This document shows positions 12,029-27,586 of a stretch of DNA of 64,000 nt, in pieces; position 1 is the first letter of the stretch, and every line of letters begins with the position of its first letter. Origin of the DNA: Halomonas sp. (lineage in GTDB: Bacteria > Pseudomonadota > Gammaproteobacteria > Pseudomonadales > Halomonadaceae); assembly GCF_017983445.1 (NCBI RefSeq), contig NZ_JAGOBJ010000002.1, positions 1 to 64,000 of the forward strand, in the 5' to 3' direction. Both the position numbers and the translations under genes were made by a program. The notes under the pieces are model-generated. The model was given only the letters and a program-made list of their open reading frames with translations, made no database searches and was not told where the DNA came from.

Positions 12029-13570
12029 ATGCATTGTACGAATATGAAAAGTACAAAGTTTGGAAAATGGATGTTGTTGCTCGGCTGCTTGACGGCATTA
12101 CCTGTCAATGCCGATGAGGATGAACACTTTAATAGGGTTATCGAGCGAGCCCAAGAGCTTGCCCAACAGACGTATCAAGCGCCGGAAGAGTCGCTTCCGC
12201 CGGCATTAAAAGACGTCAGTTACGATACCTACCGACAAATTCGTTTCGCGCCTGACAAAGCGTATTGGCGTGATGAAAGCCCTTTCAATCTACAGTTATT
12301 TCACAGCGGTTTCATATTTCAAACGCCAGTCACTCTTAATATCATCGAGAACGACACGGTCACCCCGCTGCCTTTTTCAAGCGATGATTTCCAGTACGAT
12401 GATGATGCCCAAGCTCTTCTGGAGCAGGATCTGACCGGCAGTGGTCACGCCGGTTTTCGGCTGCATTATCCACTTAACAACGAAGATTACGCGGATGAGT
12501 TTGCGGTCTTTTTAGGTGCCAGCTACTTTCGCCTGACGGGTAAGGGGCAAACCTATGGCCTCTCCACGCGTGGGCTCGCCATTGATACGGCGTCCCCCGA
12601 GGGAGAAGAATTTCCGGCGTTTCGCGAATTCTGGCTTTACAAGCCCGGCGCGAATGACGATGAAATAACCCTTCTCGCTCTGTTGGATAGCCCTTCTTTA
12701 AGCGGCGCCTATCGGATTACGCTACACCCGGGTGAGCAAACGGATGCGGAAATAGATGCTCGGCTCTTTGCACGTAATGACGTTGCCAAACTAGGTATTG
12801 CTCCGCTGACCAGCATGTATGCTTTTGGGGAAGCAAGCGATGAGCGCCCTGATGACTTCCGCCCTCAGGTACACGATTCTGACGGTTTATTGATTCATAC
12901 CGGCGCGGATGAGTGGATTTGGCGTCCCCTCAGCAATCCAAAAGACATCCACATCTCAAGCTTTTTAGACGACGCCCCCAATGGCTTTGGGTTAATGCAA
13001 CGTCAGCGTAACTTTGACCGCTATCTGGATATGGAGGCTCAGTACCATCTTCGACCCAGCCAATGGGTAGCCCCTATCAAGCCGTGGGGGGCAGGCCATG
13101 TTGAGCTGGTGGAGATCCCCACGCCGGATGAGACCTTCGATAATATTGTGGCTTACTGGGTTGCCGACGAGCCGCTCAAGGCTGGAGAGTCACGCCAGCT
13201 TCACTACCATACCTACACACTCAATGATGTCCCCGAAGAACATACGCTTGGCCAGGTCATCCGCACCCGTCATGGCACGGCCAACATCCCGGGCACCGGT
13301 GAAGATAATGCACTAAAGCGCCAATTTATTGTCGACTTCCAGAGTGGAGCACTTAACGATATCGCTGTGGATCAACCTGTCGAACTTGAGATTAGTACGC
13401 AGGCAGGAGAAGTCAGCGCCTCGCATGTCATGCCACTACCCGATAATGCCTGGCGCGCCAGCTTTCGCATAGAGTCTCATAATGAACCTAGCGATATTCG
13501 CCTGCGCTTAATGCTTAACGGCCAGCCGATTAGCGAAACCTGGAACTATGTATGGTATCCCGATGCATAA
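12029..13570 (+). CDS. opgG: Periplasmic glucan biosynthesis protein OpgG (MdoG)
   Basis: This 513-residue periplasmic protein acts in the synthesis or branching of osmoregulated periplasmic glucans together with OpgH. A signal peptide is visible (charged N-terminus, hydrophobic WMLLLGCLTALPV, cleavage near VNA-DE). The two-domain OpgG/OpgD fold is supported by motifs such as ASYFR, YGLSTRGLAIDT and RQRNFDRYLDMEAQYHLRPS. The length agrees with E. coli OpgG. AGGA precedes the ATG by 8 nt. The end overlaps opgH, so the two are translationally coupled. OPG synthesis normally rises at low osmolarity; an upstream TATAAT is the only regulatory sign I see. Confidence 0.96.
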   Translation: MHCTNMKSTKFGKWMLLLGCLTALPVNADEDEHFNRVIERAQELAQQTYQAPEESLPPALKDVSYDTYRQIRFAPDKAYWRDESPFNLQLFHSGFIFQTPVTLNIIENDTVTPLPFSSDDFQYDDDAQALLEQDLTGSGHAGFRLHYPLNNEDYADEFAVFLGASYFRLTGKGQTYGLSTRGLAIDTASPEGEEFPAFREFWLYKPGANDDEITLLALLDSPSLSGAYRITLHPGEQTDAEIDARLFARNDVAKLGIAPLTSMYAFGEASDERPDDFRPQVHDSDGLLIHTGADEWIWRPLSNPKDIHISSFLDDAPNGFGLMQRQRNFDRYLDMEAQYHLRPSQWVAPIKPWGAGHVELVEIPTPDETFDNIVAYWVADEPLKAGESRQLHYHTYTLNDVPEEHTLGQVIRTRHGTANIPGTGEDNALKRQFIVDFQSGALNDIAVDQPVELEISTQAGEVSASHVMPLPDNAWRASFRIESHNEPSDIRLRLMLNGQPISETWNYVWYPDA

Positions 13571-15605
13571 AAATAACGAACGCCGACAAGAACCATTACA
13601 TGAACGATCCCAAGAACGGTCACAAGAGCTTTCATCTGAACTAGCGCCCTCGATTCCATGGCTCGGATTTCGCCGCCTCCTTCTGACGGTGCTGGTAATA
13701 AGCTCCAGCATTGCCGGCTGCGTGGCGATGTATCATGTCATTTCCAACCTGGGGATAGGCTGGCAGATCACCATGCTGGTGCTATTCGCCCTCACCTTCA
13801 CCTGGATCGCCCTGGCGTTCTGGGGAGCCGTCTTCGGTTTTTTGGTGTGTTTGCTGCGGCGTGACCCGTTAAGCTTAGGTCGGCAGGTGCCGCTTGAACC
13901 TAACGGCAGTTTATTGGTTAGCCGCACAGCGTTGGTGATGCCAATTTATGCAGAGCCTCCCATTCCTACCATTGCGGGGCTTGAAGCCACCTGCCGTTCG
14001 TTGATAGAGCAGGCAAAAACGCCGGATAATCATATTGAAACACCCCTCAGCGAGCACTTTGAGGTGTTTATTCTGAGCGATACACAGGATCCCGAAAAGG
14101 CCAAGGTGGAAGCCGCCCATGTGGTTGCCTTACAGCAACGCCTGGCTGGCCAGCTATCGGTTCATTATCGGCGCCGGGAGAACAACCTGGGCCGTAAAGC
14201 AGGCAATATCGCCGAATTCTGCCGTCGCTGGGGGCGGCGCTATGATTATATGGTAGTACTCGACGCCGATAGCCTCATGAGTGGTGCAACGCTATTGAAG
14301 CTTGTCCATCGCATGCAGCGTCAGCCCAGCGTTGGCTTGATTCAAACCGTACCGATTCCGGTTGGCCAGCGTACGCTGTTTGGTCTGTTTACCCAATTTG
14401 CCTCAGCACTTTACAGCCCGATGCTGGCAGCAGGTCAAAGTTTTTGGCAGGGCGACGCTGCTAACTATTGGGGGCATAATGCAATTGTGCGCACCCGAGC
14501 GTTTATGGCAAGCGCAGGGTTACCGCTGCTGTCTGGCAAACCGCCGCTAGGTGGCGAGATTTTGAGCCACGACTTTGTTGAGGCTGCGCTACTTAAAAGA
14601 AGCGGCTGGCAGGTTTTGCTGGATACATCAGCGACTACGGCTGTTTCAAGCCATAATCCTTACGCCAGCGCTTCCCACAATAGCTTTGAGGCAATGCCCA
14701 GCAATATGCTCGACTTTGCCAAGCGCGACCGTCGCTGGCTACAGGGCAACTTGCAGCATTTACGTCTACTGACAGGTGCTGGATTTCATACTCTCAGCCG
14801 GCTGCACTTCTTGTTCGGCGCGTTTGCCTACCTATCGTCGCTGGTTTGGCTTGGCTTGCTGGTCTGTACGAGCCTGTTGGTGGGCTATCATGCCATCGAT
14901 GACACACCCGAACAGATGCTTCCCCAGTCACTTTCAGTCGGGCTACTGTTTATTACCTTGGGTATGCTGCTGGCGCCCAAATTTCTGGGTCTGCTACTGG
15001 CCTTTATTCAGTGCCCCCACGCGTTTGGTGGCCGGGTCCGGCTGCTGGCAAGCGCAGTGTTGGAGATACTCTTTGCCGCGCTAATCGCTCCGTTGATGAT
15101 GGCCTGCCATAGCCTTTTTATCATTAACGTTTTAGTGGGTGGCTCTATCGAGTGGCAAACCCAGCCGCGGGGCGAGCGTTCGTTACGCTGGCGAGAGGTG
15201 TGGCAGCATGCTGGCTGGATGACCCTGTGTGGCCTTGCCTGGTCCGGCGGCGTGATGCTGTTTTCGCCCTCCGCCTTCGGCTGGCTAACACCTGCCTGGT
15301 TAGGTTTGGTCGCAGCGGTACCGATCATTAAATACTCAAGCAGCAGCACATGGGGTGGGGTTCTTAGTCAGCGCCTAGGACTTTTGCAAACGCCTAGCGT
15401 CAGTTTAAGCCCGCCGCTGCTGGATGAGTTTAATGCCTTGATGGCGCGCGACAGCTCAACCATGCCTTCAGCTGCAGATGGCGCTACGCTAAGCCTCAGC
15501 GCCCTGCCTTCCGAGCTATCCGGCGATATGCCGTGTCAGTCGCTTTATCAGTTTAATGCGCAAGCAATGGCATCCCCGGAGCCTCAAGCAGAAGAGCCTA
15601 ATTAA
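13548..15605 (+). CDS. opgH: Glucans biosynthesis glucosyltransferase OpgH (MdoH)
   Basis: This inner-membrane GT2-family enzyme polymerises the beta-1,2 glucan backbone from UDP-glucose. Two membrane spans (about residues 42-105) precede the catalytic domain, whose motifs are VVLDADS (DXD), HDFVEAALL (third Asp) and RRWLQGN (the QXXRW position). Four to five C-terminal spans follow. At 685 residues it is about 160 shorter than E. coli OpgH (about 850), missing much of the long N-terminal and C-terminal cytoplasmic regions. The start is ambiguous: ATG at 13548 (23-nt overlap with opgG) or ATG at 13563 (8-nt overlap); neither has a strong Shine-Dalgarno, consistent with translational coupling. 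Confidence 0.95.
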   Translation: MYGIPMHKNNERRQEPLHERSQERSQELSSELAPSIPWLGFRRLLLTVLVISSSIAGCVAMYHVISNLGIGWQITMLVLFALTFTWIALAFWGAVFGFLVCLLRRDPLSLGRQVPLEPNGSLLVSRTALVMPIYAEPPIPTIAGLEATCRSLIEQAKTPDNHIETPLSEHFEVFILSDTQDPEKAKVEAAHVVALQQRLAGQLSVHYRRRENNLGRKAGNIAEFCRRWGRRYDYMVVLDADSLMSGATLLKLVHRMQRQPSVGLIQTVPIPVGQRTLFGLFTQFASALYSPMLAAGQSFWQGDAANYWGHNAIVRTRAFMASAGLPLLSGKPPLGGEILSHDFVEAALLKRSGWQVLLDTSATTAVSSHNPYASASHNSFEAMPSNMLDFAKRDRRWLQGNLQHLRLLTGAGFHTLSRLHFLFGAFAYLSSLVWLGLLVCTSLLVGYHAIDDTPEQMLPQSLSVGLLFITLGMLLAPKFLGLLLAFIQCPHAFGGRVRLLASAVLEILFAALIAPLMMACHSLFIINVLVGGSIEWQTQPRGERSLRWREVWQHAGWMTLCGLAWSGGVMLFSPSAFGWLTPAWLGLVAAVPIIKYSSSSTWGGVLSQRLGLLQTPSVSLSPPLLDEFNALMARDSSTMPSAADGATLSLSALPSELSGDMPCQSLYQFNAQAMASPEPQAEEPN

Positions 15606-15630
15606 TGCTTAGCCATTGATGGGTTTGGTA

Positions 15631-15662
15631 AGCATCTAAGCGGGGCAACCCGCTTAGATGCT
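15631..15662. terminator. 14-bp perfect hairpin with GCAA tetraloop after opgH
   Basis: A perfect 14-bp stem (15631-15644 with 15649-15662) is closed by a GNRA-type GCAA loop. It begins 26 nt after the opgH stop. There is no T-run on the plus strand, so it may be an RNA-stabilising or rho-assisted 3-prime end. It argues against a start for the next gene at 15658, which would lie inside the stem. Confidence 0.6.
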
Positions 15663-15699
15663 GATAAATTCAAGCTTACAGGCGCAGGATTTAGAATTT

Positions 15700-16479
15700 A
15701 TGATTTACCATTGGCAGACGCTGACTACCCCTGAGTTGACCGCTCTAGCGGAGCGCGATCCAGTCGCCGTTTTGGTATTGGGAGCCATTGAGCAGCACGG
15801 CACTCATCTGCCCTTAGGCACAGACCTTATCATTGGCGAAGGGCTTCAAACCGCGATGCTTGGCCTGCTTGACCCCGCCCTGGAGGTCGTTTGCCTGCCG
15901 CCCATTGCAGTCGGCGCGAGCGATGAGCACGCCAACTTTTCAGGCACGTTAAGCCTTCCAGCATCGCTCGCCATTGCAACGCTTGAAGCGTATGGCGAAA
16001 GCGTGGCACGGGCTGGCATTCAGCGTTTAGTGCTAATCAATAGTCATGGCGGTAACAAGGCCATCATGGATTTAGCATCGCTCACGTTGCGTAAGCGCTT
16101 TTCCATGCGCGTCGTTAAAGCAACCTATACCCGCCTGCCGCCGCTTGAAGGGGCTATCAATGCCGAAGAGCTGCGCTATGGCTTACATGGCGGCCTGCTG
16201 GAAACCGCCATGATGCTACACCTTGCGCCAGCCTCCGTGCAGCTGGAGAGCTATCAAACTGCTCCGCTTGGCACTTTGAAGAATAATCAGCTTCTGGGGC
16301 CCGAGGGCGCAGCCGCGTTTGCCTGGCTCGCGGAAGATCTCAGCCAGCACGGTGTTGCAGGCGATGCCCGCCAGGCAAACGCCGCGTTGGGTGAGCGCCT
16401 GGTTCAACATTACGCTAGTCAACTGGCAACCGTGGTGGCGGAAACCGCCCGGCTGCCCGCTGTATCTCAAAAATCCTAG
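15700..16479 (+). CDS. Creatininase-family amidohydrolase (ArfB-like)
   Basis: This 259-residue protein has the creatininase fold with an apparently complete metal site: E31-Q-H33 in GAIEQHGTHLPLGTD, D42, H116 in INSHGGN and E168 in HGGLLETAMM. The family includes creatininase, mycofactocin peptidase MftE and the archaeal formamide hydrolase ArfB, which acts just after GTP cyclohydrolase in riboflavin/F420 synthesis. A GTP cyclohydrolase II gene is convergent 19 nt away and a RibD-type reductase is next, so hydrolysis of a pyrimidine amide is an attractive but unproved role. The start at 15700 is chosen because the upstream ATG at 15658 lies inside a hairpin. Confidence 0.82.
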   Translation: MIYHWQTLTTPELTALAERDPVAVLVLGAIEQHGTHLPLGTDLIIGEGLQTAMLGLLDPALEVVCLPPIAVGASDEHANFSGTLSLPASLAIATLEAYGESVARAGIQRLVLINSHGGNKAIMDLASLTLRKRFSMRVVKATYTRLPPLEGAINAEELRYGLHGGLLETAMMLHLAPASVQLESYQTAPLGTLKNNQLLGPEGAAAFAWLAEDLSQHGVAGDARQANAALGERLVQHYASQLATVVAETARLPAVSQKS

Positions 16480-16498
16480 CGCCAGAACAACGTGGCCG

Positions 16499-17605
16499 CT
16501 AGCGGCTATTGCTCCCTAAAACATCGCCGAAAAGATGGCCTGCCCGGTTGGCCTTGGCGCTCAGGTAGCGGTGGTTTTGGTCGGTGACACTTCCATAAAG
16601 CGCCTGACGCGATACCACTTCAATGCCTCCCTCACGCAGAGCGGTAATCTTCAGAGGGTTATTGGTCAGTAGCTGAACCTGAGAAATACCCAACGCGTTG
16701 AGCATATCCACCGCGACCGCGTACTGACGCTCATCGTCACCAAACCCCAGCACCTGATCGGCGTCCACGGTATCCAGCCCGCCATCCTGTAGAGTATAGG
16801 CGCGTAGTTTATTGGCAAGCCCAATGCCGCGCCCCTCCTGGGCCAAATACAGCAGTACACCGCTGCCCATTGCCTGAATATCCGCCACGGCGTTACGCAG
16901 CTGTTCACCGCAATCGCAGCGCAGGCTGCCAAATAAATCACCGGTCAGGCAGGCGGAGTGCATACGTAGCGGTACAGCACCTTCTTGCGTTTCTGGCTGG
17001 CCAATAACGACCGCGACATGCTCACGCAATCCATCTGGCTCGCGGAAAAGCACGAAGCGGCTTTCAGGCGCATCTTCAAGAGGAATACTAGCTTCACTTA
17101 CTCGTTTAAGCATGCCCGGCGCTCCCGCCAGACATTTTTCGGCATCTTTCGCCTCAACCTCCAATAGTTTGCCTAGGGCAATATCCTCGGCCACGACGCT
17201 CGCTGACTGCTCACTGACCTCGGCACACAGGGCCGCCGGGATGAGCAATGCACGCCGCATGATGGCAACCGCCCCGCGCTCACCGGGCCCTGCAGGTTTT
17301 AAACCGCTTAACAGCGAGTGCGAAGGGCGATGTTCGCCTTGCGTAACGGCCAACGCATTAAGATCGCTTTCGCTTACGTTTTCGACCAAAGGCAAACACG
17401 CCGCCTCAGCGGTAAGCGACATGCCCATCGCTTCAAGGCGGTGGCGTGTTAATACCAGTGATGGGCGCGTCCCTGCGAGCTTGGCCAGCATATCGACCGA
17501 CTCAATGCCCTCCAATGCCTGTACCAGTAGACGCTTTTCGCCTGCGTTGATAACGACCGGCAACCCACGGCGAATATCGAAGATAGCGCGTTCAATGTGA
17601 TACAT
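16499..17605 (-). CDS. GTP cyclohydrolase II with degenerate RibB-like N-terminus
   Basis: This 368-residue protein has RibBA-like architecture. Residues 1-180 resemble DHBP synthase only weakly and I do not recognise the acidic active-site motif, so this half is probably inactive. The C-terminal half (about 190-365) is a complete GTP cyclohydrolase II: zinc cysteines C219, C230 and C232 in CLTGDLFGSLRCDC, the catalytic EGRGIGL, and LLTNNPLK. It should convert GTP to 2,5-diamino-6-ribosylamino-pyrimidinone phosphate, formate and pyrophosphate. It is divergent from the RibD-type gene across 97 bp and convergent with the creatininase gene. AGGAGG lies before the ATG. The setting suggests a dedicated pathway rather than housekeeping riboflavin supply (inference). 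Confidence 0.9.
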   Translation of the reverse strand: MYHIERAIFDIRRGLPVVINAGEKRLLVQALEGIESVDMLAKLAGTRPSLVLTRHRLEAMGMSLTAEAACLPLVENVSESDLNALAVTQGEHRPSHSLLSGLKPAGPGERGAVAIMRRALLIPAALCAEVSEQSASVVAEDIALGKLLEVEAKDAEKCLAGAPGMLKRVSEASIPLEDAPESRFVLFREPDGLREHVAVVIGQPETQEGAVPLRMHSACLTGDLFGSLRCDCGEQLRNAVADIQAMGSGVLLYLAQEGRGIGLANKLRAYTLQDGGLDTVDADQVLGFGDDERQYAVAVDMLNALGISQVQLLTNNPLKITALREGGIEVVSRQALYGSVTDQNHRYLSAKANRAGHLFGDVLGSNSR

Positions 17606-19487
17606 ATAGGCCTCCTAATTGCCTGTTGCAGCGAATAGCGTACGCTTGCGCTGGGCCATGTGGCCCCGCAAGATAAGACGGTTTTCTCAGCGCGGAGGCG
17701 TTATGCCCGACACCGATCGTCCAAGTGGCTGCACTCGTCACGAAACATTGCTGGATATTGAGGCGGCCTGGGATTGGCTTTTGGCTATGCACCATCGAAA
17801 GCCTTCCAGCACACCCCTTGAGCTCAGCCCCGAGGGGCAATGGCACACCCATACGGCGATTACGCCAGCAACCACCGAGCTGCTGGACTGTCTGACACCG
17901 CTGGTGAGTCGCGATTCCTGGGTAATCGCCCAACTCGGGCAAAGCCTGGATGGGCGGATTGCGACTGAAAGCGGTCACTCGCATTACATCAACGGTCAGG
18001 AAAGTCTGGTTCATCTGCACCGGCTGCGTGCCTTGGTGGACGCGGTGGTGATTGGTGCGGGTACGGCAAGCGCTGATAACCCCCAACTGACGGTACGCCA
18101 CGTTACCGGTGCTAACCCCACGCGGGTGGTGCTTGATCCCCGTGGCAGGGTGCCTTTTGATATCAAGCTGTTTCACACCGATTCGGCGCCCACGCTGCAC
18201 TTGGTGGGGCCGGATGCAAAGCTTGCGCCGCCGAGTGCCACCGTTCAACGCTGCGTGTTGCCACTCAATGACCAAGGGCAGTTCGCCCCCGGCGATGTTA
18301 TTAAACTGCTTAACCAGCACGGATTGCGTCGCATCCTGGTGGAAGGCGGCGGCGTGACGGTTTCCCAATTTATCGAGGCAGGCGTGATTGATCGCCTGCA
18401 TCTTCTGGTCGCTCCGCTGTTGATCGGCTCGGGCAGACCCGGGTTGCAAATGACGCCCGTCGAAACGCTTGAAAGTGCGCTGCGCCCGACGATGCGCCGG
18501 TTTTGCTGTGGCGACGACACTCTGTTTGACGTGCTGCTGTGCGCCGCCACCTTCACCTGATGGCTGCGCACGGTGATGACGCGATAATGCCACCCAGATG
18601 CCCGGCAGGCTTGAAAGCAGTACCAGCACCCCATAGGCCAGGGATACCGCCACGCCCTGAGCTGTGGGCAACCCGACCAATGCCCAGGTGGCAACCGCGG
18701 CGCCTTCGCGCACTCCCCAGCCAGCAACGGACAGCGGTACCAGCATGGCCAGGAGAAGTACGGGGGCAAGCGCCAGGATCTGCAGTGTTTCAAGTTCCAC
18801 ACCGATGGCACGCGCGGCGCACACCATCACGAGCCCATAGCTCACCACGATGGTCAGCGAAGAGGCCAGCTGCAAATTCCAAACACCAGGACTTAGCAGA
18901 CCGCGCCTGATATCCAATCGCATGGAGTGCCACCATGCAGGCAGCTTTGGGGAAGATAAACGGATTAGCCCTTGCCATACCGCCACTGTCGCCACACAAA
19001 GCCCAATAGCAATGACCAGGCTCACCGGCCAACCCAGCACAGCATGCCAGAGCGGAGACAACAAAAACGCCGCCAAGGTTAAAATCACGACGGCGACCTG
19101 ACCCGAGGTGCGCTCAATGATAACCGCCCGCCAAGCGCTGCCGCGCGATACCGATTGGCTAGCATGCCGATGAGCACGGCCGGCGTCTCCCAATACCCCG
19201 CCGGGCAACAGCTGATTCATCAGTAGGGCCAGGTAGTATTCACGCCAGGCATAGCTAAAGCGCAGCGGGGCCCCTACCCGCTCAGCCGTAAACTGCCACC
19301 GCCAGGCACTCAGCATGATTTGCAGCACGCTGATAAATAGCGCTAACGCCACCCAGCCAGGAGATAAACGCTCCACCTGAGCCATGATCTCACGCGGGTC
19401 TACAAAGAGTGCCACCGCTCCTAAAAGCCCCGCGCTAATTAAGCCACGTTGAACCCAGGGAGAACGTGCGATGCGCTTTATGCCCAT
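17592..19487 (-). CDS. Flippase-like integral membrane protein (LPG synthase TM / UPF0104 family)
   Basis: The recognisable protein is residues 1 to about 315 (19487 to about 18545). It has seven or eight predicted membrane spans with the family blocks AWRWQFTAERVG, LLMNQLLPGGVLGDAGRA and VPLSVAGWGVREGAAV. Related proteins are MprF-type flippase domains and AglD, which handle lipids or lipid-linked sugars. After SRHHRAQ there is no stop; the frame runs another 310 residues antisense through the whole ribD-type gene to 17592. That tail is low-complexity-like and probably not a domain. It starts 4 nt after the glycosyltransferase stop, with GGAG upstream, so it belongs to the leftward operon. 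A role in moving the pathway product across the membrane is inference. Confidence 0.72.
   Translation of the reverse strand: MGIKRIARSPWVQRGLISAGLLGAVALFVDPREIMAQVERLSPGWVALALFISVLQIMLSAWRWQFTAERVGAPLRFSYAWREYYLALLMNQLLPGGVLGDAGRAHRHASQSVSRGSAWRAVIIERTSGQVAVVILTLAAFLLSPLWHAVLGWPVSLVIAIGLCVATVAVWQGLIRLSSPKLPAWWHSMRLDIRRGLLSPGVWNLQLASSLTIVVSYGLVMVCAARAIGVELETLQILALAPVLLLAMLVPLSVAGWGVREGAAVATWALVGLPTAQGVAVSLAYGVLVLLSSLPGIWVALSRHHRAQPSGEGGGAQQHVKQSVVATAKPAHRRAQRTFKRFDGRHLQPGSARADQQRSDQKMQAINHACLDKLGNRHAAAFHQDATQSVLVKQFNNIAGGELPLVIEWQHAALNGGTRRRKLCIRPHQVQRGRRIGVKQLDIKRHPATGIKHHPRGVSTGNVAYRQLGVISACRTRTNHHRVHQGTQPVQMNQTFLTVDVMRVTAFSRNPPIQALPELGDYPGIATHQRCQTVQQLGGCWRNRRMGVPLPLGAELKGCAGRLSMVHSQKPIPGRLNIQQCFVTSAATWTIGVGHNASALRKPSYLAGPHGPAQAYAIRCNRQLGGLYVSH
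17703..18560 (+). CDS. Stand-alone RibD C-terminal reductase
   Basis: A 285-residue protein in which residues 1-70 match nothing I recognise and residues 72-285 form a RibD/ArfC reductase domain (dihydrofolate reductase fold, NADPH dependent). Motifs seen are WVIAQLGQSLDGRIAT, the nucleotide-binding VVIGAGTASADNPQLTVR, NPTRVVLDPRGR, ILVEGGGVTVSQF and LLVAPLLIGSG. The deaminase half of bifunctional RibD is absent. The reaction expected is reduction of the ribosyl side chain of a GTP-derived pyrimidine to ribityl. GGAGG is 5 nt before the ATG at 17703. The whole gene lies antisense to the open 3-prime part of the neighbouring membrane-protein frame. Confidence 0.88.
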   Translation: MPDTDRPSGCTRHETLLDIEAAWDWLLAMHHRKPSSTPLELSPEGQWHTHTAITPATTELLDCLTPLVSRDSWVIAQLGQSLDGRIATESGHSHYINGQESLVHLHRLRALVDAVVIGAGTASADNPQLTVRHVTGANPTRVVLDPRGRVPFDIKLFHTDSAPTLHLVGPDAKLAPPSATVQRCVLPLNDQGQFAPGDVIKLLNQHGLRRILVEGGGVTVSQFIEAGVIDRLHLLVAPLLIGSGRPGLQMTPVETLESALRPTMRRFCCGDDTLFDVLLCAATFT

Positions 19488-19491
19488 AGGC

Positions 19492-21432
19492 TTACTCCGC
19501 CCTCAACGGTATTGCGAGCAGATCACAATGGCCAACCCATACTCCTGCCTCTCCACTGGCGACGGCCTGTGTACGCCGTTCACGCCATTCAGCAATCCGA
19601 GTGGCGGCTTCCGGCGACTGCTCTGTCGCGGCTTCGGCCCAACCATTGATCAAGGCCGTCATCAGGGGCTGATGTGAACGATTGCCTGCCTCTAGTAGCC
19701 ACGGCGTTTCTACCTGTTCGACCTGATAGTTGGCCTGTTCAAGCGCGCTGACCAACGCGCCATGCGCCTGACCGCCCAACGCCTCCCCCAAACCTTTATC
19801 ACGCTGCTGATGGGCAATGAACAGTATCTGCAGCCAATGATCTTCATCATCGGCTAGCGGTTCGCCATCAGCGTCGGTAAATCCCCATTCGCCAGTAACG
19901 CTCAGCGCCATCAAAAGTGCCTGTTGATGCTTGGCACAGTGCGCGACGAGCGTTTCGATCCAAGTCTGCGAGACGAGGTCAAGCAATGCTGACGCGCTCA
20001 CCAAATGAGCTGATTGCAACGGCGGGTGATCCAGAGAATCGAGCGATGCGCATAATGTTTCCAGCGTTGTTGCGCTTTGATCGACAAGCGCATCAGTACT
20101 TTTCCTGGCCTCATCAAGCAACGCTGCATCGTGATCAATCAGCGTCCAGTGCTGTGGCAAGGGCATAAAAGGGGCGAGAAAACGCATATTACTGCCGCGA
20201 CCTGCCCCCAAATCGACTAGACGCGGTGCTGGAGTACGCGCGCTTAGCCACTGTGCGGCTTTGCTCGGAAGCTGCTGACTTCTAAACGTAAAGTCTACCT
20301 CTTCACGCAGCGTCAGCCAGTCGGGTGCAAACTGGCTACCCGCCCTCAAAGCGGGGGCATCACTTAACGCATTTGCAAACGCTACGCCCGCGGCCTGCCA
20401 ATCATTGAGCTGCTCACGCGCGGCCAAGACTCCGGCTTTCAAGGCATCACGCAGCGTCGCATCATCACAGAAACGACTTAGGGCACGTTTAAGGGCCTCG
20501 ACATCACCCGGCGCAACTTTAAGCCCCGCGCCTTCCGGCAAGGTCTCATCCAGAGCGCCGCCCGTCGTCGTAATGACCGGCAGGCCATGCGCCAGCGCTT
20601 CGGTCACTACCATGCCATAGCCTTCATACCAGGAAGGCAGCACTAGCACATCGGCCTCCTGATAGGCCTTTATCAACGTGGCTTCATCGCACTCACCGTG
20701 CAGCTGAATATTCGCGTGAAGCCCATTGTCTTCGATAAGCTGCTGTACGCGCTCCGCAAACACCGCATCACGTGCAGCGCCATAACAGTCGCACTGCCAA
20801 TTGGTCGATGTAATACCTGCCAAGGCACGAACCAGCAGATCCTGCCCCTTGCGCGGCACCAACGTTGCCACACATAGAAGGCGCAGCGGTTTACCTGGTT
20901 CTGCGCCTATACTTGGCGGGATTTCACCCTTGATAAGAGCCGCCTCCACGCCGGGCTCTACCACGCTAATCCTGGCGGTAATCGGCACTGAGTAGTGGTC
21001 TGCCAATGCCTGTAAACGGCGCTGGGTAAACCGGCTGGTCACAATAATGTGCGAGACAGCCGCCAGGGCCTGTAGTTCACATTGATGAAACTGCTTTTGC
21101 TGTTTATCGCTTAACCCTTGCTCATCGCCTAGCGGATGATGCACCAGCGCCGTCATCACTAATCGCTCGGCGTGCTGGACAATCACCGAGGGAAGTGCGC
21201 CCATGGCCAGGCCATCGATGACGACCGTTGCTGCATCGGGTAAATCACTTAGCGCTGCCGATAGCTGGTCGCTGGCCTGTTGGTCGGCATCGGGAAAACT
21301 CCCCGCCAGACTAACCACATCAACAGAACGCCCGGCGTCGCGCAGCGCCTCAACGATGCGTGTGTCGTAAATATATCCACCGGTGCGCTGATTGAGATCG
21401 CCAGCGACAATAAGGGTTAGTGGTTGGCTCAT
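19492..21432 (-). CDS. Fusion of GT4 glycosyltransferase and SAM methyltransferase
   Basis: This 646-residue cytoplasmic protein joins two enzymes. Residues 1 to about 365 are a GT-B fold family 4 glycosyltransferase: the N-terminal GDLNQRTGGYIYD, the mid-domain LLCVATLVPRKGQDLL, and the nucleotide-sugar site with the EX7E pair E270 and E278 in YEGYGMVVTEAL. Residues about 370-640 form a class I SAM methyltransferase with motif I LVDLGAGRGSN at 405-415 and an acidic LIDHD after it. The start overlaps the PTPS-like stop by 4 nt (ATGA). The fusion implies successive glycosylation and methylation of one intermediate; donor and acceptor are unknown. Confidence 0.88.
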   Translation of the reverse strand: MSQPLTLIVAGDLNQRTGGYIYDTRIVEALRDAGRSVDVVSLAGSFPDADQQASDQLSAALSDLPDAATVVIDGLAMGALPSVIVQHAERLVMTALVHHPLGDEQGLSDKQQKQFHQCELQALAAVSHIIVTSRFTQRRLQALADHYSVPITARISVVEPGVEAALIKGEIPPSIGAEPGKPLRLLCVATLVPRKGQDLLVRALAGITSTNWQCDCYGAARDAVFAERVQQLIEDNGLHANIQLHGECDEATLIKAYQEADVLVLPSWYEGYGMVVTEALAHGLPVITTTGGALDETLPEGAGLKVAPGDVEALKRALSRFCDDATLRDALKAGVLAAREQLNDWQAAGVAFANALSDAPALRAGSQFAPDWLTLREEVDFTFRSQQLPSKAAQWLSARTPAPRLVDLGAGRGSNMRFLAPFMPLPQHWTLIDHDAALLDEARKSTDALVDQSATTLETLCASLDSLDHPPLQSAHLVSASALLDLVSQTWIETLVAHCAKHQQALLMALSVTGEWGFTDADGEPLADDEDHWLQILFIAHQQRDKGLGEALGGQAHGALVSALEQANYQVEQVETPWLLEAGNRSHQPLMTALINGWAEAATEQSPEAATRIAEWRERRTQAVASGEAGVWVGHCDLLAIPLRAE

Positions 21433-21827
21433 AGATCCCCTTCATAGCTTGCCCAGGCAATATGGGATTCGTGCAGTTTGATTTCCATACGGGTAATCCC
21501 CTGCGCGGTCTTACCCATTTTGCCTTCGCCGATGGCATCGGCCAGGCGGCTAAAAATAACGCTGGACATAAATTCGGTAGAGGTGTTTTTGCCCACGAAC
21601 TCTTCCTCATCATCCAGGTTGCGATAATTCAGGTGTGACAACACTTCTTTAACCGTTTCGCTCGCCAGGCCAATATCAATCACCAAACCATCTTCGTCCA
21701 ATTCAGGGCGTTGAAAGATCACATCAACGACATAGGTGGCCCCATGGGTACGCTGAGCAGGGCCAAAAATTTCACCTTTAAAGCTATGCGCAATCATAAA
21801 GTGGTCACGAACACATAGACGGTACAT
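21429..21827 (-). CDS. Divergent 6-pyruvoyl-tetrahydropterin synthase (QueD) family protein
   Basis: A 132-residue tunnelling-fold protein aligned by eye with QueD/PTPS. Retained are the first zinc-ligand histidine H14, the first histidine of the HGH pair (H28), the GLVIDI block and the pterin-binding-type glutamate E120. Lost are the catalytic Cys (A24 in AQRTHGA), the third zinc His (A30) and the Asp-His pair of the triad (N67-Y68 in LNYRN). It is therefore unlikely to catalyse the normal PTPS/QueD reaction. It sits 18 nt after the MDR gene and overlaps the glycosyltransferase gene by 4 nt, so it is cotranscribed. It may bind a pterin or pyrimidine, or use a changed chemistry. Confidence 0.82.
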   Translation of the reverse strand: MYRLCVRDHFMIAHSFKGEIFGPAQRTHGATYVVDVIFQRPELDEDGLVIDIGLASETVKEVLSHLNYRNLDDEEEFVGKNTSTEFMSSVIFSRLADAIGEGKMGKTAQGITRMEIKLHESHIAWASYEGDL

Positions 21828-21845
21828 AAACGCTCCTGAATTTGA

Positions 21846-22835
21846 TTAATTGCAAGTGGGATAACGAAGACGATGACATAGCACATCACTGCCTACCCCA
21901 AAGAGCTTAGGGGCAAGCTGAGGCAGCGTTTCAAAGTCACTCTCGCCGCTGATGAGTGCATCCAGGCGGCTATCGGTCAAGAGACTCAAGGCAAGGGTCA
22001 AACGGCGCTGGTAATCCCAGCGTGGACGTAGTTTGGCAGGCAGTTGGCCCACCTGGCTGGCGCGCAGGCTAAGGCGTTGAGAATGAAAAGTTCCCCCCAG
22101 AGGAATGCTCACATCGCCCTCGCCAAACCAGCTCATTTCTATAATGCGGCCTTCATTGCCCACTTGGCCGAGCGCTTGGCGCAAGCCTTCAGGATGGCCG
22201 CTGGCGTGAACAACGCAATCCTGATTAATGGGGGCGTGCTCAGGTAAACAGAAAGTAAGGCCCAAGCGTTCAGCAAGCACTTGGCGCTCAGGGTTAATGT
22301 CAATGAGCGTCGCCGTTACGCCGGGTATTTGCGCGCATAGGTAAGCTACCAATGTGCCAACCACCCCGGCACCAATAATGCTGATCTGCTCGCCAAGCAT
22401 AGGCTCGGCATCCCACACGCCGTTAATGGCGGTTTCCATATTGGCGGCGAGTACGGCTCGCGCAGCCGGTACGTCTTCAGGAATCGGCAACACCATCTCG
22501 GCAGGCACCACATAGCGGTCCTGATGAGGATAGAGGCAAAATACCGTTTTACTGCGCAGATGCTCAGGCCCCTGCTCGACCACGCCGACGTTACAGTAGC
22601 CATATTTGACGGGCCCCGGAAAACGCCCCGCCTGGAAAGGCGCCTGCATGCGCTCCACTTCGCTTTCTGGAACACGGCCATTAAATACCAATGACTCGGT
22701 GCCCCGGCTAACGCCGCTATACAAGGCACGCACCAAAACATCGTTACTTCCAACGTGGGCTAGCTGTTCGCTTTTAAGCTCGCCCTTCCCTGGGTGAGTG
22801 ACCCAAAAGGCGGTGGATGTTTCTGTCGCCGACAT
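21846..22835 (-). CDS. MDR-family dehydrogenase lacking the catalytic zinc ligands
   Basis: This 329-residue medium-chain dehydrogenase/reductase has an N-terminal GroES-like domain (to about residue 130) and a Rossmann domain with IIGAGVVGTLVAYL and the adenosine-binding acid in LIDINPERQ. The usual catalytic Cys of the GVCxxD motif is Ser-Arg (SGVSRGTES), and the GHE block is replaced by KYGYCNVG, so it is probably zinc independent, as in the BchC-like group. It is the promoter-proximal gene of the leftward operon MDR - PTPS-like - GT/MTase - flippase-like. The substrate is unknown; oxidation or reduction of a side chain of the cluster product is the simplest guess. Confidence 0.83.
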   Translation of the reverse strand: MSATETSTAFWVTHPGKGELKSEQLAHVGSNDVLVRALYSGVSRGTESLVFNGRVPESEVERMQAPFQAGRFPGPVKYGYCNVGVVEQGPEHLRSKTVFCLYPHQDRYVVPAEMVLPIPEDVPAARAVLAANMETAINGVWDAEPMLGEQISIIGAGVVGTLVAYLCAQIPGVTATLIDINPERQVLAERLGLTFCLPEHAPINQDCVVHASGHPEGLRQALGQVGNEGRIIEMSWFGEGDVSIPLGGTFHSQRLSLRASQVGQLPAKLRPRWDYQRRLTLALSLLTDSRLDALISGESDFETLPQLAPKLFGVGSDVLCHRLRYPTCN

Positions 22836-23060
22836 GACGTTTCCCTATTATTAGCGTTTTCATCCGATGAGTGTGGTGTCTCAGATGGGCAACCCAACGT
22901 TACCAATTCATGAACTTATGGTGGCATTTCCTAAAGCTTAGCGTAGAAAAACGATTGGTCGATGAATGCAGGAAGCCAATTTCGTTTAATAACGTTTAAA
23001 AAATAAGGTACGCAGTTTTCAGGAACATCAATACGCTATGATGGATGAGATAGACAGTCC

Positions 23061-23091
23061 TTTACCTATGTACAAGAATGGTACATATAAA
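23061..23091 (+). promoter_or_regulatory. Putative MerR-type promoter with dyad in a 19-bp spacer
   Basis: A -35-like TTTACC (23061-23066) and a -10-like TATAAA (23086-23091) are separated by 19 bp. The spacer carries a perfect dyad TATGTAC-N7-GTACATA (23067-23087). An over-long spacer with an internal dyad is the signature of MerR-family control. It would drive the CDP-alcohol phosphatidyltransferase gene 55 nt downstream. In the remaining 22836-23145 interval I see no gene. Confidence 0.5.
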
Positions 23092-23145
23092 AATATTTGC
23101 ATCAATTAATTAGCTGCGGACAGACGGTTCGCTTTGTGAGACGCC

Positions 23146-23889
23146 ATGCTTCGATTCTTTCCCCCTACCGCTACCCCGCTGCTATCCAGCAGGCTATATA
23201 CCGCTGGCGAACTGATTGTGGGCAGCTTGGTACTTCTGGGAATGGGGAGTGTGTTACCGATGCTAATGGCTAATACCTTGAATTGGGGACTGGCATTTGG
23301 GGTATATGCACTGATTAGCCTATTGATGATGGTTTTTTGGTCTGGTGGCGCATTGGGGTGGGCGAACCGCATTACGTTACTACGCGCAATACTGATTGCC
23401 TTGGCAGCCGGGGCGCTTGCCAATAACGTTTTTACCCAAGCCATTTGGCTATGGCTAGTGATCGCGACCGTGGCGCTTATGCTCGACGGTGTTGATGGTT
23501 GGATTGCCAGGCTTACCAAAAGCTATAGCGCGTTTGGCGCACGCTTTGATATGGAGCTGGATGCCCTACTGATTCTTCTACTGTGTATCGGGCTGATCCA
23601 ACTTGAATCGCTGGGCCTGTGGATACTGCTGATTGGCTTGATGCGCTATTTTTTCGTGGCCGCCAGCTGGCATTTTACCTGGCTCTGCGCGCCTTTATTT
23701 GCCAGCTTTCGCCGCAAGCTGGTGTGCGTTTGGCAGGTGTCCGCCCTGTTGCTGGCATTAACGCCGCTTACCCATCCGTTTTTGGCAAGCCTGTTAGCGT
23801 TTAGCGCACTAGTCTCGCTAGCCTATTCATTCGGGGTGGATATTAGGTGGCTCTACAGACAGTCTGGACATAAACACACCCGAACGTGA
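23146..23889 (+). CDS. CDP-alcohol phosphatidyltransferase family protein
   Basis: This 247-residue membrane protein has about six spans. It carries an exact CDP-alcohol phosphotransferase motif D-x2-DG-x2-AR-x8-G-x3-D-x3-D, with the aspartates at 114, 117, 135 and 139 at the end of the third span. Such enzymes move a phospho-alcohol from a CDP-linked donor onto an acceptor alcohol, making phospholipids such as PG, PS or PI-phosphates. It is too divergent to name as PgsA or PssA and is not beside their usual partners. It is divergent from the MDR operon across 310 bp, suggesting that it belongs to the same pathway and attaches the product to a lipid (inference). Confidence 0.88.
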   Translation: MLRFFPPTATPLLSSRLYTAGELIVGSLVLLGMGSVLPMLMANTLNWGLAFGVYALISLLMMVFWSGGALGWANRITLLRAILIALAAGALANNVFTQAIWLWLVIATVALMLDGVDGWIARLTKSYSAFGARFDMELDALLILLLCIGLIQLESLGLWILLIGLMRYFFVAASWHFTWLCAPLFASFRRKLVCVWQVSALLLALTPLTHPFLASLLAFSALVSLAYSFGVDIRWLYRQSGHKHTRT

Positions 23890-24557: not shown

Positions 24558-25490
24558 ATGAATATTCAGCAACTGCGCATCGTTCGGGAAACTGTACGGC
24601 AGCACTTCAACCTGACTGAAGCTTCTAACGCGCTTTACACCTCTCAGTCAGGTGCCAGCAAGCATATTCGTGACTTGGAGGACGAGCTGGGTGTTGAATT
24701 ATTCGAGCGCCGCGGCAAGCGTATTCTTGGTCTAACCGATGCAGGCCGCACGTTGATCGACTGCATTGAGCGCATCTTGCTCGATGTTGAAAATCTCAAG
24801 CGTTCGGCTCACCAGTTAACCCATGAAGACCAGGGAAGTCTTGCCATTGCAACAACGCATACCCAGGCACGCTATGCACTCCCCCCGATCATTGCCCAGT
24901 TCAAGAAGGCCTTTCCCAAGGTACATCTGGAACTCCACCAATGCGGGCCAGAAGAGATCGTTTCACTACTCAAGGCAGGCAGAGTGGATATAGGCATCGC
25001 CACCGAAGCGCTGCACGAAGAGAGCCAGCTTTTTGCCTGCTTTCCTTTTTATCACTGGTATCACGGGGTTATCGTGCCTGAACACCACCCCTTGAACGAC
25101 GGCTTACCACTAACGCTTGAGCGAATTGCCGAGCACCCCATTGTTACCTACCACGACGGTTTTACGGGCCGAGCACGCATCGACACGGCGTTTACATCGG
25201 TTGGCGTGTATCCCGATATCGTGCTGACCGCCCTGGATGCAGACGTTATCAAAACCTACGTTGAGCTGGGCATGGGTGTGGGGTTGATTGCCTCCATGGC
25301 GTATCACGAAGCGCGTGATCAAGGACTCGAACTACTGGATGCCAGCGCGCTGTTCCCGCGCAATACTACTTATCTGGCGCTACGGCGTGGTCATTTTCTG
25401 CGCGGGTACGTCTATCAATTTCTAAAGCTGTGCCGCGATAACCTGGATGAAGACACCGTTCAGCGCGTTCTGGCAGGCCGTCAGGATTAA
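24558..25490 (+). CDS. cysB: LysR-family sulfur regulator (CysB/Cbl)
   Basis: A 310-residue LysR-type regulator of sulfate assimilation. The N-terminal winged HTH (MNIQQLRIVRETV to about residue 60, with SQSGASKHIRDLEDELG) and the effector-domain signatures ATTHTQARYALPPI and TYHDGFTGRARID are characteristic of CysB and its paralogue Cbl. It lies directly upstream of the sulfate ABC transporter genes in the same direction, which fits local control. N-acetylserine would be the expected inducer (known for CysB). Two dyads in its leader suggest autoregulation. Whether it is the main CysB or a second Cbl-type copy cannot be decided here. Confidence 0.92.
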   Translation: MNIQQLRIVRETVRQHFNLTEASNALYTSQSGASKHIRDLEDELGVELFERRGKRILGLTDAGRTLIDCIERILLDVENLKRSAHQLTHEDQGSLAIATTHTQARYALPPIIAQFKKAFPKVHLELHQCGPEEIVSLLKAGRVDIGIATEALHEESQLFACFPFYHWYHGVIVPEHHPLNDGLPLTLERIAEHPIVTYHDGFTGRARIDTAFTSVGVYPDIVLTALDADVIKTYVELGMGVGLIASMAYHEARDQGLELLDASALFPRNTTYLALRRGHFLRGYVYQFLKLCRDNLDEDTVQRVLAGRQD

Positions 25491-25615
25491 CCACAGTTTC
25501 GCGCCCTACTCGTTAAGCTTAAAAAGTAATAAGTAATCCATTTTATATTCGTTATTAGAAGTAATAAATTTGCTTAGGCTGTCCTCCTACTTACCTAAAA
25601 GCATCGGAGCAGCCA

Positions 25616-26683
25616 ATGAACGCCTTTCATCCTTCTACTCAATGGCCCCTTTCCAAGCTAGTGGCAGCCGTCTTATTGGGTGGCGCCGTATTCGCCACCA
25701 CGCTTGGCCTACCAGCTACCGCTCACGCAGAAAGCGAGCACGTAGAACTTCTCAATGTCTCCTACGACCCGACACGTGAGTTCTATCGGGAATATAACGA
25801 GCTGTTTGCCGATCATTGGCAGCAAGCACAAGGCCAAACGGTTTCAGTCCGCCAATCTCATGGTGGTTCCGGGTCACAGGGTCGCGCGGTGGTCGATGGG
25901 ATTGATGCGGATGTGGTCACGCTGGCCCTCGCCTACGACATTGATGCTCTGCATGACCGCGCCGACCTTATCCCTGCCGATTGGCAGTCGCGTCTGCCCT
26001 ACAACAGCTCGCCCTACACCTCCACTATCGTGTTACTGGTTCGCGATGGTAACCCCAAGAACATTCAGGGCTGGGAAGATTTGACGCGTGACGATGTGGA
26101 AGTCATCACGCCGAATCCTAAAACCTCAGGCGGAGCGCGCTGGAATTTTCTGGCGCTGTGGGGTTATGGGCTCGAGCAGTTCGATGGCGATGAGCAGCAG
26201 ACGTTCGACTTTGTTCAGCAAGTGTTCGAGAACGTACCGGTACTCGATTCCGGCGCGCGGGGCGCTACCAACACTTTCGTACAGCGCCGGTTAGGCGATG
26301 TGCTGCTCGCCTGGGAAAACGAAGCCATTCTTTCGGTAGAACAGCTGGGGAAAGGCGATTTTGAAATCGTGGTGCCAGAGCAGAGCATTCTGGCCGAACC
26401 GCCTGTCGCAGTGGTTGATGCCAACGTCGATCGCAAGGGAACCCGCGAAGCCGCCGAAGCGTACCTTGAATACCTCTACTCCGAAGAAGCCCAGCGGCTA
26501 GCCGCTAAACACTATTACCGCCCGCGTAGTGAAGACGTGCTGGCAGAGCACATTGATGCGTTCCCCTCGCTTGAGCTTTTCACTATCGATGACGTTTTTG
26601 GGGGCTGGCAAAGCGCCCAGGCGCGCTTCTTCAATGATGGCGGCGTTTTCGACGAGATTCTTGAAGCGATCAACGCTCAGTAG
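25616..26683 (+). CDS. sbp: Sulfate ABC transporter substrate-binding protein
   Basis: This 355-residue periplasmic protein captures sulfate (or thiosulfate) for CysTWA. The signal peptide ends near AHA-ESEH. The mature start LLNVSYDPTREFY and the block SHGGSGSQGRAVVDGIDADVVTLALAYDID are hallmarks of the Sbp/CysP family. GGAG is 7 nt before the ATG. An AT-rich 125-bp leader containing ATAAGTAAT/TTATTAGAAGTAATAA-like elements is a plausible CysB target, though I cannot fix a site. It heads the operon sbp-cysT-cysW-cysA. Confidence 0.95.
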   Translation: MNAFHPSTQWPLSKLVAAVLLGGAVFATTLGLPATAHAESEHVELLNVSYDPTREFYREYNELFADHWQQAQGQTVSVRQSHGGSGSQGRAVVDGIDADVVTLALAYDIDALHDRADLIPADWQSRLPYNSSPYTSTIVLLVRDGNPKNIQGWEDLTRDDVEVITPNPKTSGGARWNFLALWGYGLEQFDGDEQQTFDFVQQVFENVPVLDSGARGATNTFVQRRLGDVLLAWENEAILSVEQLGKGDFEIVVPEQSILAEPPVAVVDANVDRKGTREAAEAYLEYLYSEEAQRLAAKHYYRPRSEDVLAEHIDAFPSLELFTIDDVFGGWQSAQARFFNDGGVFDEILEAINAQ

Positions 26684-26743
26684 CCCTGTTTATTTACCTC
26701 GCCGGGAGTGCCTGCGCCCCGGCCTTTGCTTCTGGAAAACGGT

Positions 26744-27574
26744 ATGTCGATAACGCTTGCCAAACGCCGGGTCATACCAGGTTTTGGTCTGACCATGGGT
26801 TTCACCCTGCTGTATATGGGCCTTGTGTTTCTTATCCCGGTGGGCGCCTTTTTGCTCTATACCACCACCATGAGCTGGGAGACGTTCTGGAGCGCGATTA
26901 CTCAGCGCCAGGTAGTCGCGTCTTACAAGCTCTCTTTTGGCGGATCGTTGATTGCGGCCACGATCAATCTGATATTTGGCGCGCTGGTAGCCTGGGTGCT
27001 GGTGCGTTACCGCTTTCCGGGCAGGCGGGTGGTCGATGCACTGGTCGACCTGCCGTTTGCGCTTCCTACCGCCGTGGCCGGTATCGCGCTGGTGACACTC
27101 TACGCCAGCACCGGCTGGGTGGGGCAGTACCTGGAGGTTTTTGGCATTCGTGTCGCCTATACCCAGCTGGGCGTCATTGTGGCGCTGACCTATATCGGGC
27201 TGCCTTTTGTCGTTCGTACAGTGCAACCCGTTCTTGAAGACCTGGAAGCCGAATGGGAAGAGGCCTCGGCCAGTTTGGGCGCTGGTCGCCTGACAACCCT
27301 GCGGCGCGTGATATTTCCAGCGTTGCTCCCGGCCCTGTTGACCGGCTATGCCCTGGCCTTTGCCAGAGCACTGGGAGAATACGGCTCAGTGGTCTTCATC
27401 TCGGGAAACCTGCCGTTTCGTACCGAAATCACCCCACTGCTCATCGTCTCCAAGGCTGAGCAGTACGACTATCACGGCGCCGCCGCTATTGGCACTGTCA
27501 TGCTGATAGCGGCGTTTTCCATGCTGCTGGTCATCAATGGCCTGCAGTGGTGGGCCAGTCGGCGGTATGCATAA
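26744..27574 (+). CDS. cysT: Sulfate ABC transporter permease CysT (CysU)
   Basis: This 276-residue inner-membrane permease has six predicted spans and the EAA loop (EEASASLGAGRLTTLRRVIFP) that docks on CysA. The block VDLPFALPTAVAGIAL is typical of CysT. It pairs with CysW. I place the start at the ATG (MSITLAKRR); a GTG in the same frame at 26708 would add 12 residues. It lies 60 nt after the binding-protein gene and 12 nt before cysW. Confidence 0.94.
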   Translation: MSITLAKRRVIPGFGLTMGFTLLYMGLVFLIPVGAFLLYTTTMSWETFWSAITQRQVVASYKLSFGGSLIAATINLIFGALVAWVLVRYRFPGRRVVDALVDLPFALPTAVAGIALVTLYASTGWVGQYLEVFGIRVAYTQLGVIVALTYIGLPFVVRTVQPVLEDLEAEWEEASASLGAGRLTTLRRVIFPALLPALLTGYALAFARALGEYGSVVFISGNLPFRTEITPLLIVSKAEQYDYHGAAAIGTVMLIAAFSMLLVINGLQWWASRRYA

Positions 27575-27586
27575 AAGGAGTTCACT

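Follow-up and report, generated by a model that had tools for sequence, protein, structure and literature searches.

The window that we analysed, i.e., a stretch of 64,000 nucleotides of Halomonas sp. (positions 1-64,000 of the forward strand of NZ_JAGOBJ010000002.1, assembly GCF_017983445.1), carries a neighbourhood of about ten genes whose members stay side by side across many unrelated bacteria; no account of it was found in the literature searched. These genes may encode a dedicated GTP-derived pathway, apart from riboflavin synthesis, that leads to a glycosylated and methylated compound, probably borne on a phospholipid and exported, a proposal to which we give about even chances as a whole. 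The core GTP pathway taken by itself is fairly likely, the lipid and export step is evenly balanced, and a decoration of glucan by the product appears improbable. The initial annotation of the window had proposed that a dedicated branch leads from GTP by way of an aminopyrimidine to a product that is glycosylated, methylated and lipid-linked or exported; this is still the simplest reading and is partly supported by the co-occurrence of the genes, their paralogy to housekeeping genes and the residues of their GTP cyclohydrolase II (GCHII), but it left out MdoG, MdoH and a membrane enzyme that we call c3.

One support of the proposal is the co-inheritance of a zinc-less medium-chain dehydrogenase/reductase (MDR, 21846-22835, minus strand) and a protein resembling 6-pyruvoyltetrahydropterin synthase (PTPS, 21429-21827, minus strand; PF01242, 85.5 bits). 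Within a sample of 398 Pseudomonadota genomes, which includes the window's own relatives, searches at 1e-45 for the MDR and 1e-20 for PTPS found both in the identical 27 genomes and adjacent in all 27; 12 of these come from the order of the window, among them 9 from its family, and the other 15 lie outside the order. Likewise, both are present in an identical set of 23 among 194 genomes of the order (MDR at E <= 1.1e-39, PTPS at E <= 1e-5), a pattern that spans many families; two identical 23-genome sets would arise with a chance of 2.4e-30 in a calculation blind to relatedness, the true figure being larger given kinship. A RibD-like protein was detected at 1e-25 in 18 of the 194 genomes, all of them within the same 23, and the five remaining genomes comprise four with a distant version of the cluster (type B), in which the RibD matches are weaker, and one (G102) in which the contig ends first. 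In support of the initial annotation, these families are found together, and next to each other, much more than chance would allow in both samples and in the 80 loci described below; the outcome that it had named as fatal, a scattering of the genes independently of one another in related genomes, is contradicted by the identical MDR and PTPS patterns. Chance clustering is thus ruled out by the co-occurrence tests. An assembly of unrelated genes by chance or by general neighbourhood drift would fit with individual optional genes that come and go, but given the identical patterns over 398 and 194 genomes and a gene order that recurs across phyla, we regard it as extremely improbable.

The composition of the neighbourhood was followed in 80 named loci, the best of at least 583 retrieved with the MDR, in which neighbouring genes were called with a purpose-built codon-usage gene caller; two of these loci are from genomes that also contributed to the 22 loci collected in the order, and the gene counts lean on near relatives. 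Besides the MDR (80 of 80), the loci hold PTPS (75), the glycosyltransferase (75), the methyltransferase (70), RibD (68), a CDP-alcohol phosphatidyltransferase (63), the flippase (45), creatininase (41), GCHII (37) and MdoH (32), and the gene caller further returned an FkbM methyltransferase in 36, MdoG in 26, c3 in 19, YceI in 18 and cytochrome b561 in 6. Family HMMs at set thresholds gave nearly the same figures (FkbM 36, MdoG 26, MdoH 31, flippase 44, c3 19, YceI 20, b561 6). The constant core is made of MDR, PTPS, GT4 glycosyltransferase, methyltransferase and RibD, while GCHII and creatininase are optional, since they occur in only 37 and 41 of the 80 loci. In the order (L036-L057), MDR, PTPS, glycosyltransferase and methyltransferase are present in 22 of 22 loci and RibD in 19, the other three (L038, L039, L046) being cut by contig ends. 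Hosts of the 80 loci include Vreelandella, Halomonas, Kushneria, Chromohalobacter, Marinobacter, Thauera, Variovorax, Bradyrhizobium, Inquilinus, Gemmatimonadota and Acidobacteria, and plasmid versions are found in Thiodictyon, Methylosinus, Rhizobium, a Rhodobacteraceae strain (without GT4) and the actinobacterium Microbacterium. Five loci have no PTPS beside the MDR; in four of the five genomes it is encoded elsewhere, adjoined by the glycosyltransferase in all four and by the methyltransferase in three.

All eight genes that the initial annotation had listed between 15700 and 23889 were recovered by Pfam and NCBIfam at their positions and in their families, although the recurring neighbourhood also takes in mdoG, mdoH and c3, which lie outside that interval. 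The tight operon that it described does exist, with five genes and not four: MDR, PTPS, a fusion of a GT4 glycosyltransferase with a class I methyltransferase (19492-21432), a flippase-like LPG_synthase_TM protein (17592-19487; domain at residues 15-292) and GCHII (16499-17605) follow each other head to tail on the minus strand, with overlaps of 4 nt between PTPS and the fusion gene and of 14 nt between flippase and GCHII. The ribD-like gene (17703-18560) is on the plus strand, antisense inside this run, and on either side of the run, also on the plus strand, lie the creatininase-family amidohydrolase (15700-16479, a start chosen by the initial annotation, the longest ORF beginning at 15658) and the CDP-alcohol phosphatidyltransferase (23146-23889). 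Between 9500 and 25000 no Rfam family reached the gathering thresholds. Promoter-like sites were fewer than in shuffled sequences (2 versus 5.9) and terminator-like sites about equal (13 versus 9.7, sd 3.3). One scan of viral contigs with the MDR returned no match that would point to a phage origin.

Two of the genes belong to families that open the riboflavin pathway, and for both the genome has other copies. The GCHII paralogue (PF00925, 186.6 bits) has the zinc cysteines, tyrosine, aspartate and arginine of its family, which predicts the family activity: C219, C230, C232, D291 and R293 are kept at a 95% cut in 38 aligned cluster proteins, and the equivalent of Tyr105 is found in 37, the remaining one having a gap. 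In the E. coli enzyme the equivalent residues are the three zinc cysteines, Tyr105, Asp126 and Arg128. In 31 of the 38 proteins the arginine of LYLRQEGR is changed to alanine. The N-terminal RibB-like half is degenerate, as the initial annotation had stated: aligned to the RibBA that the genome has elsewhere, not one of the 38 keeps the motif RENEGD, and these proteins lack the catalytic motifs of 3,4-dihydroxy-2-butanone 4-phosphate (DHBP) synthase, RENEGD and HTE. The RibD-like protein carries a RibD_C domain (PF01872, 137.6 bits) without the deaminase domain and is thereby predicted to be a reductase; its best match among PDB sequences is 6p8c (1.4e-23), with pyrimidinone-phosphate reductases among the best matches, it stays under every listed NCBIfam cut-off (ribD_Cterm, 129 versus 150.15), and in at least 34 of 68 proteins a signature lysine is replaced by glutamine. 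Compared with riboflavin RibA and RibD, the cluster thus has the same families and the same GCHII catalytic residues, and differs by the absent deaminase domain, the lost RibB half and the changed signature residues.

The reactions of GCHII and of the RibD reductase are established for their families, and from them we infer the opening of the pathway here. GCHII, in the form of the cluster copy or, in clusters that have none, of the housekeeping one, would convert GTP into 2,5-diamino-6-(phosphoribosylamino)pyrimidinone, and the deaminase-free reductase would then reduce the ribosyl to a ribityl chain and leave the 2-amino group in place, so that the two together would yield 2,5-diamino-6-ribitylamino-pyrimidinone phosphate. 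That the cluster supplies the only riboflavin route can be discarded, as can the second outcome that the initial annotation had held to be fatal, namely that its GCHII and RibD are the sole riboflavin enzymes of the organism: among three places with GCHII and two with RibD in the genome, contig C1 holds nrdR, a bifunctional ribD, ribBA, ribH and nusB together (nrdR, ribH and nusB as read from translations), and a further GCHII lies on contig C12. One could still imagine a modified flavin or lumazine pathway, a second riboflavin-like route that makes a pigment or an antenna, given that riboflavin synthesis itself opens with a GCHII and a RibD-type reductase. However, no lumazine or riboflavin synthase family was matched among the cluster proteins scanned with Pfam and NCBIfam, the RibD has no deaminase domain, the half that resembles RibB has degenerated and the PTPS keeps its pterin-ring anchor, all of which leads us to consider such a route very unlikely.

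The creatininase-family protein (PF02633, 207.6 bits) belongs to its superfamily by this score and by the metal-ligand motifs EQHG, D56, HGGN, HGG and E182, kept in 42 proteins, and falls far short of the ArfB deformylase equivalog NF033501 (23 bits versus 180). A role as deformylase behind a GCHII whose reaction ends at the formamide is weakened, because 37 of 38 proteins retain the tyrosine that marks a full GCHII and because the two genes occur apart: among 84 distinct long loci, 8 have creatininase but no cluster GCHII, and 11 have GCHII but no creatininase.

The PTPS-like protein would suit the 2-amino-4-oxo ring of this pyrimidinone. In an alignment of 20 rows that includes E. coli QueD, Glu120, the anchor of the pterin ring, is invariant (20/20), and the fold and this anchor predict ring binding. 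The initial annotation was right that the catalytic triad is missing, the catalytic cysteine and the histidine of the Asp-His pair being gone in all 19 rows besides QueD, with the aspartate retained in two (L038, L063). The third zinc histidine is replaced in type A rows and present in type B rows. Relative to QueD (6-carboxytetrahydropterin synthase), the cluster protein therefore shares the T-fold family, the ring glutamate and two histidines, and differs in the catalytic cysteine, the histidine of the pair and, for type A, one zinc histidine; it lacks the catalytic and zinc residue set of QueD/PTPS, and scores 40.4 bits against the QueD model of NCBIfam (cut-off 89.25). The closest solved structure to its profile is a PTPS homologue of Streptomyces coelicolor, SCO6650 (3d7j; 1.2e-58, full length), which is reportedly devoid of zinc and of the triad while keeping the pterin-binding residues; we know of no function for SCO6650. 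Near two PTPS genes of this type on linear plasmids of Streptomyces (L062, L149), genes for an MBL-fold protein, a cupin and a BTAD regulator were seen. In a distant version of the cluster (L052-L057), which occurs in three further families of the order, the four aligned PTPS copies have all three zinc histidines and GCHII stands alone, without a RibB half.

The adjacent MDR is zinc-less, as had been claimed: compared with the motifs of the zinc class, CGTD has become RGTE (SPGTE, SAGTE or SAGSE in type B) and GHE has become GY in the alignment. Its structural model (pLDDT 93.4) has polyol and sugar dehydrogenases among the closest predicted folds. We propose that the PTPS-like protein holds the ring through its invariant glutamate and, together with this polyol-type MDR, remodels the ring or the side chain, after which the glycosyltransferase and the methyltransferase would decorate the ring compound. 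The GT4 domain (PF00534) scores above its cut-off and Methyltransf_25 slightly under it (26.1 bits, cut-off 27); the two are fused in 20 of the 80 loci.

Beyond the core, the loci point to a module for lipid attachment and export. The CDP-alcohol phosphatidyltransferase (PF01066, 58.6 bits) has the complete motif DGxxARx8GxxxDxxxD, with motif residues conserved at 95% or more in 64 proteins. The membrane protein c3 (10251-11825, minus strand), a recurring cluster member of the alkaline-phosphatase superfamily, has N-terminal membrane helices followed by a phosphatase domain with nucleophile and metal ligands (conserved Ser, Glu and Asp-His), i.e., the architecture of headgroup transferases; its predicted fold resembles LtaS, GacH and EptA, no NCBIfam model matched it, and its profile found no match among PDB sequences although the fold search did. 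Over 84 distinct long loci (105 distinct loci in all), flippase (51), c3 (26) and YceI (23) were encountered solely where the CDP-alcohol transferase is present (71 loci) in raw counts, uncorrected for kinship, and this dependency is the main support for a lipid and export module attached to the core. Accordingly with these families, the transferase would link the compound or its glycoside to a lipid, the LPG_TM protein would flip the lipid-linked form, and c3 would act on the head group outside, possibly handing it to the glucan made by MdoGH.

The presence of glucan genes modifies the statement that no known glycolipid operon is present, which was incomplete since genes of osmoregulated periplasmic glucans and a phosphotransferase adjoin the cluster: MdoG (12029-13570; PF04349, 623 bits; the single match in the genome) and an MdoH-type GT2 glucosyltransferase (13548-15605; NCBIfam MdoH, 682 bits), both on the plus strand. 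The likeness to the known glucan system lies in these two family matches and in the LtaS/EptA-like predicted fold of c3; unlike OpgB, LtaS and EptA, c3 is a putative transferase, characterised here by its sequence and fold model and without an NCBIfam match. In an attractive but unlikely extension, a new phospholipid, its head a pterin or diaminopyrimidine that derives from GTP and carries sugar and methyl groups, would be flipped across the inner membrane, and c3 would move the phosphorylated head onto the MdoGH glucan. Around the glucan genes we also noted that four loci of the Vreelandella group (L072, L073, L077, L080) have mdoG and c3 with mdoH undetected in the stretch, and that in 12 loci of the Vreelandella type (L068-L078, L080) creatininase and the mdo genes have an FkbM methyltransferase gene between them; a family HMM scan did not find it in the window, where the corresponding gap is 15605-15700. 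Betaproteobacterial loci (L131:7706-8650, also L114 and L133) have between mdoH and ribD a gene for a probably exported protein of 312-323 residues, whose L131 copy has no Pfam or NCBIfam match.

YceI (23/84) and cytochrome b561 (10/84) are never found together in the long loci, and b561 lies beside the core in two plasmid-borne clusters, which raises the question of a membrane redox carrier, a lipid with a ring of the pterin or flavin type that cytochrome b561 would oxidise and YceI would carry. The exclusion is a weak pattern at such frequencies, few loci being expected to have both anyway; 51 of the 84 loci have neither gene, and neither was found in the 64-kb window. We therefore hold this carrier to be quite unlikely.

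Several observations weigh against a GTP-derived and lipid-linked product. As GCHII is encoded in fewer than half of the loci, the origin from GTP leans on the family membership of RibD and PTPS; RibD_C proteins share the fold of dihydrofolate reductase (DHFR) and may have other substrates, and the type A PTPS, having lost both a zinc histidine and the triad, may serve for binding and not for catalysis. This PTPS type also serves elsewhere, as the two homologues on Streptomyces plasmids (59.7% and 58.3% identity) stand without the set, having no annotated MDR, RibD or GT4 within 10 kb, and in one of the five split loci a genome search found no PTPS at all. For the lipid step, 17 of the 80 stretches have no CDP-alcohol transferase and 36 no detected flippase (35 at a looser cut-off), and L139, a shorter stretch, has a flippase with no CDP-alcohol transferase in it, the sole exception in 105 loci. 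Furthermore, the dependency on the transferase is strong for the flippase and modest for c3 and YceI, since 71 of 84 loci carry the transferase in any case. Lipid export may then be an add-on rather than an integral part. A rival reading is that the five-gene core makes a soluble pterin or pyrimidine glycoside, a cofactor or metabolite, and that the lipid, flippase and glucan genes are envelope-glucan accessories, in agreement with a core that is the most constant part, and the sole part of the set in the stretch at L127, L128 and L146, next to variable mdoH and lipid genes. The restriction of flippase, c3 and YceI to long loci with the CDP-alcohol transferase, and the recurrence of the lipid-module genes in several phyla, argue the other way, and a soluble glycoside seems to us rather unlikely; we retain the GTP-derived, lipid-linked and exported compound as the working proposal.

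The nested ribD gene presents a question of its own. The flippase frame runs antisense through the entire ribD to the start of gchII, which gives in the window an ORF of 631 residues with a 3' extension of about 320 codons, and it stays open 260-345 codons beyond its domain in all 22 Halomonas-group loci (L068-L087, L091, L095), compared with stops within 1-75 codons in 22 other loci. Stops in this frame correspond to the ribD codons TTA, CTA and TCA, and none of 5746 ribD codons in 23 genomes (the 22 loci and the window) is one of them, when about 130 would be expected from each genome's own codon usage. Eight other cluster genes and mdoH in the same genomes have 14-40 such codons per 1000, ribD in 21 other genomes has 9.07 per 1000, and the other two frames of the flippase strand across ribD hold 102 and 178 stops. 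In 17 of the 23 genomes the stop of the frame lies 14 nt into gchII (L078 being counted from the sequence at the stop), and in the other six it lies elsewhere near the next start. In Halomonadaceae, where 86 of 151 genomes gave a match, the flippase ORF has at least 573 residues in 45 and at most 474 in 41, and long and short forms split by genus except for the contig-end case G102 (g3).

We read the open frame as the sign of a selection that keeps ribosomes moving to gchII, through translational coupling or protection from polarity, and not as a new domain. Against a reading by selection alone, ribD exceeds most other genes here in GC3 and, to some degree, in the conservation of its four-fold sites, the 23 genomes are related and not independent, and fewer than two such codons are expected per GC-rich Halomonas genome; the composition of ribD accounts for part of the missing stops, yet hardly for their complete absence in Vreelandella of moderate GC. 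A functional C-terminal domain encoded by the extension was not supported, its conservation (0.494) being within that of other antisense shadows (0.407-0.523). Antisense proteins are the subject of related literature (PMC7457138). The noncontiguous operon menE-menC-MW1733-ytkD of S. aureus, as described in a review (PMC7154746), is alike in having an opposite-strand gene inside an operon-like run; it differs by an internal untranslated region, whereas here the upstream frame remains open through the antisense gene and ends on the next start. The nested antisense ribD is thus a strong natural case for asking why a long frame stays open through an opposing gene.

Two neighbours deserve mention. 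A ManC-type mannose-1-phosphate guanylyltransferase/isomerase gene (8817-10226, minus strand) follows c3 on that strand at a distance of 24 bp, and relatives are near the cluster in 3 of the 80 loci (L117, L081, L088); GDP-mannose might accordingly be the donor of the GT4 enzyme. Past the cluster, at 24558-28474, genes for a CysB-family regulator and, by reading of translations, for a sulfate-binding protein and two permeases look unrelated to it.

With a linked MDR-PTPS pair in 27 of 398 Pseudomonadota and versions in Gemmatimonadota, Acidobacteria and Actinomycetota, the cluster offers a genomic context for an enzyme type that has a solved structure (SCO6650, 3d7j). If the proposal is true, a lipid or glucan bearing a pterin or pyrimidine would represent a new class of envelope molecule and, should the head group be passed on to the glucan of MdoGH, it would amount to a nucleotide-derived decoration of envelope glucans.

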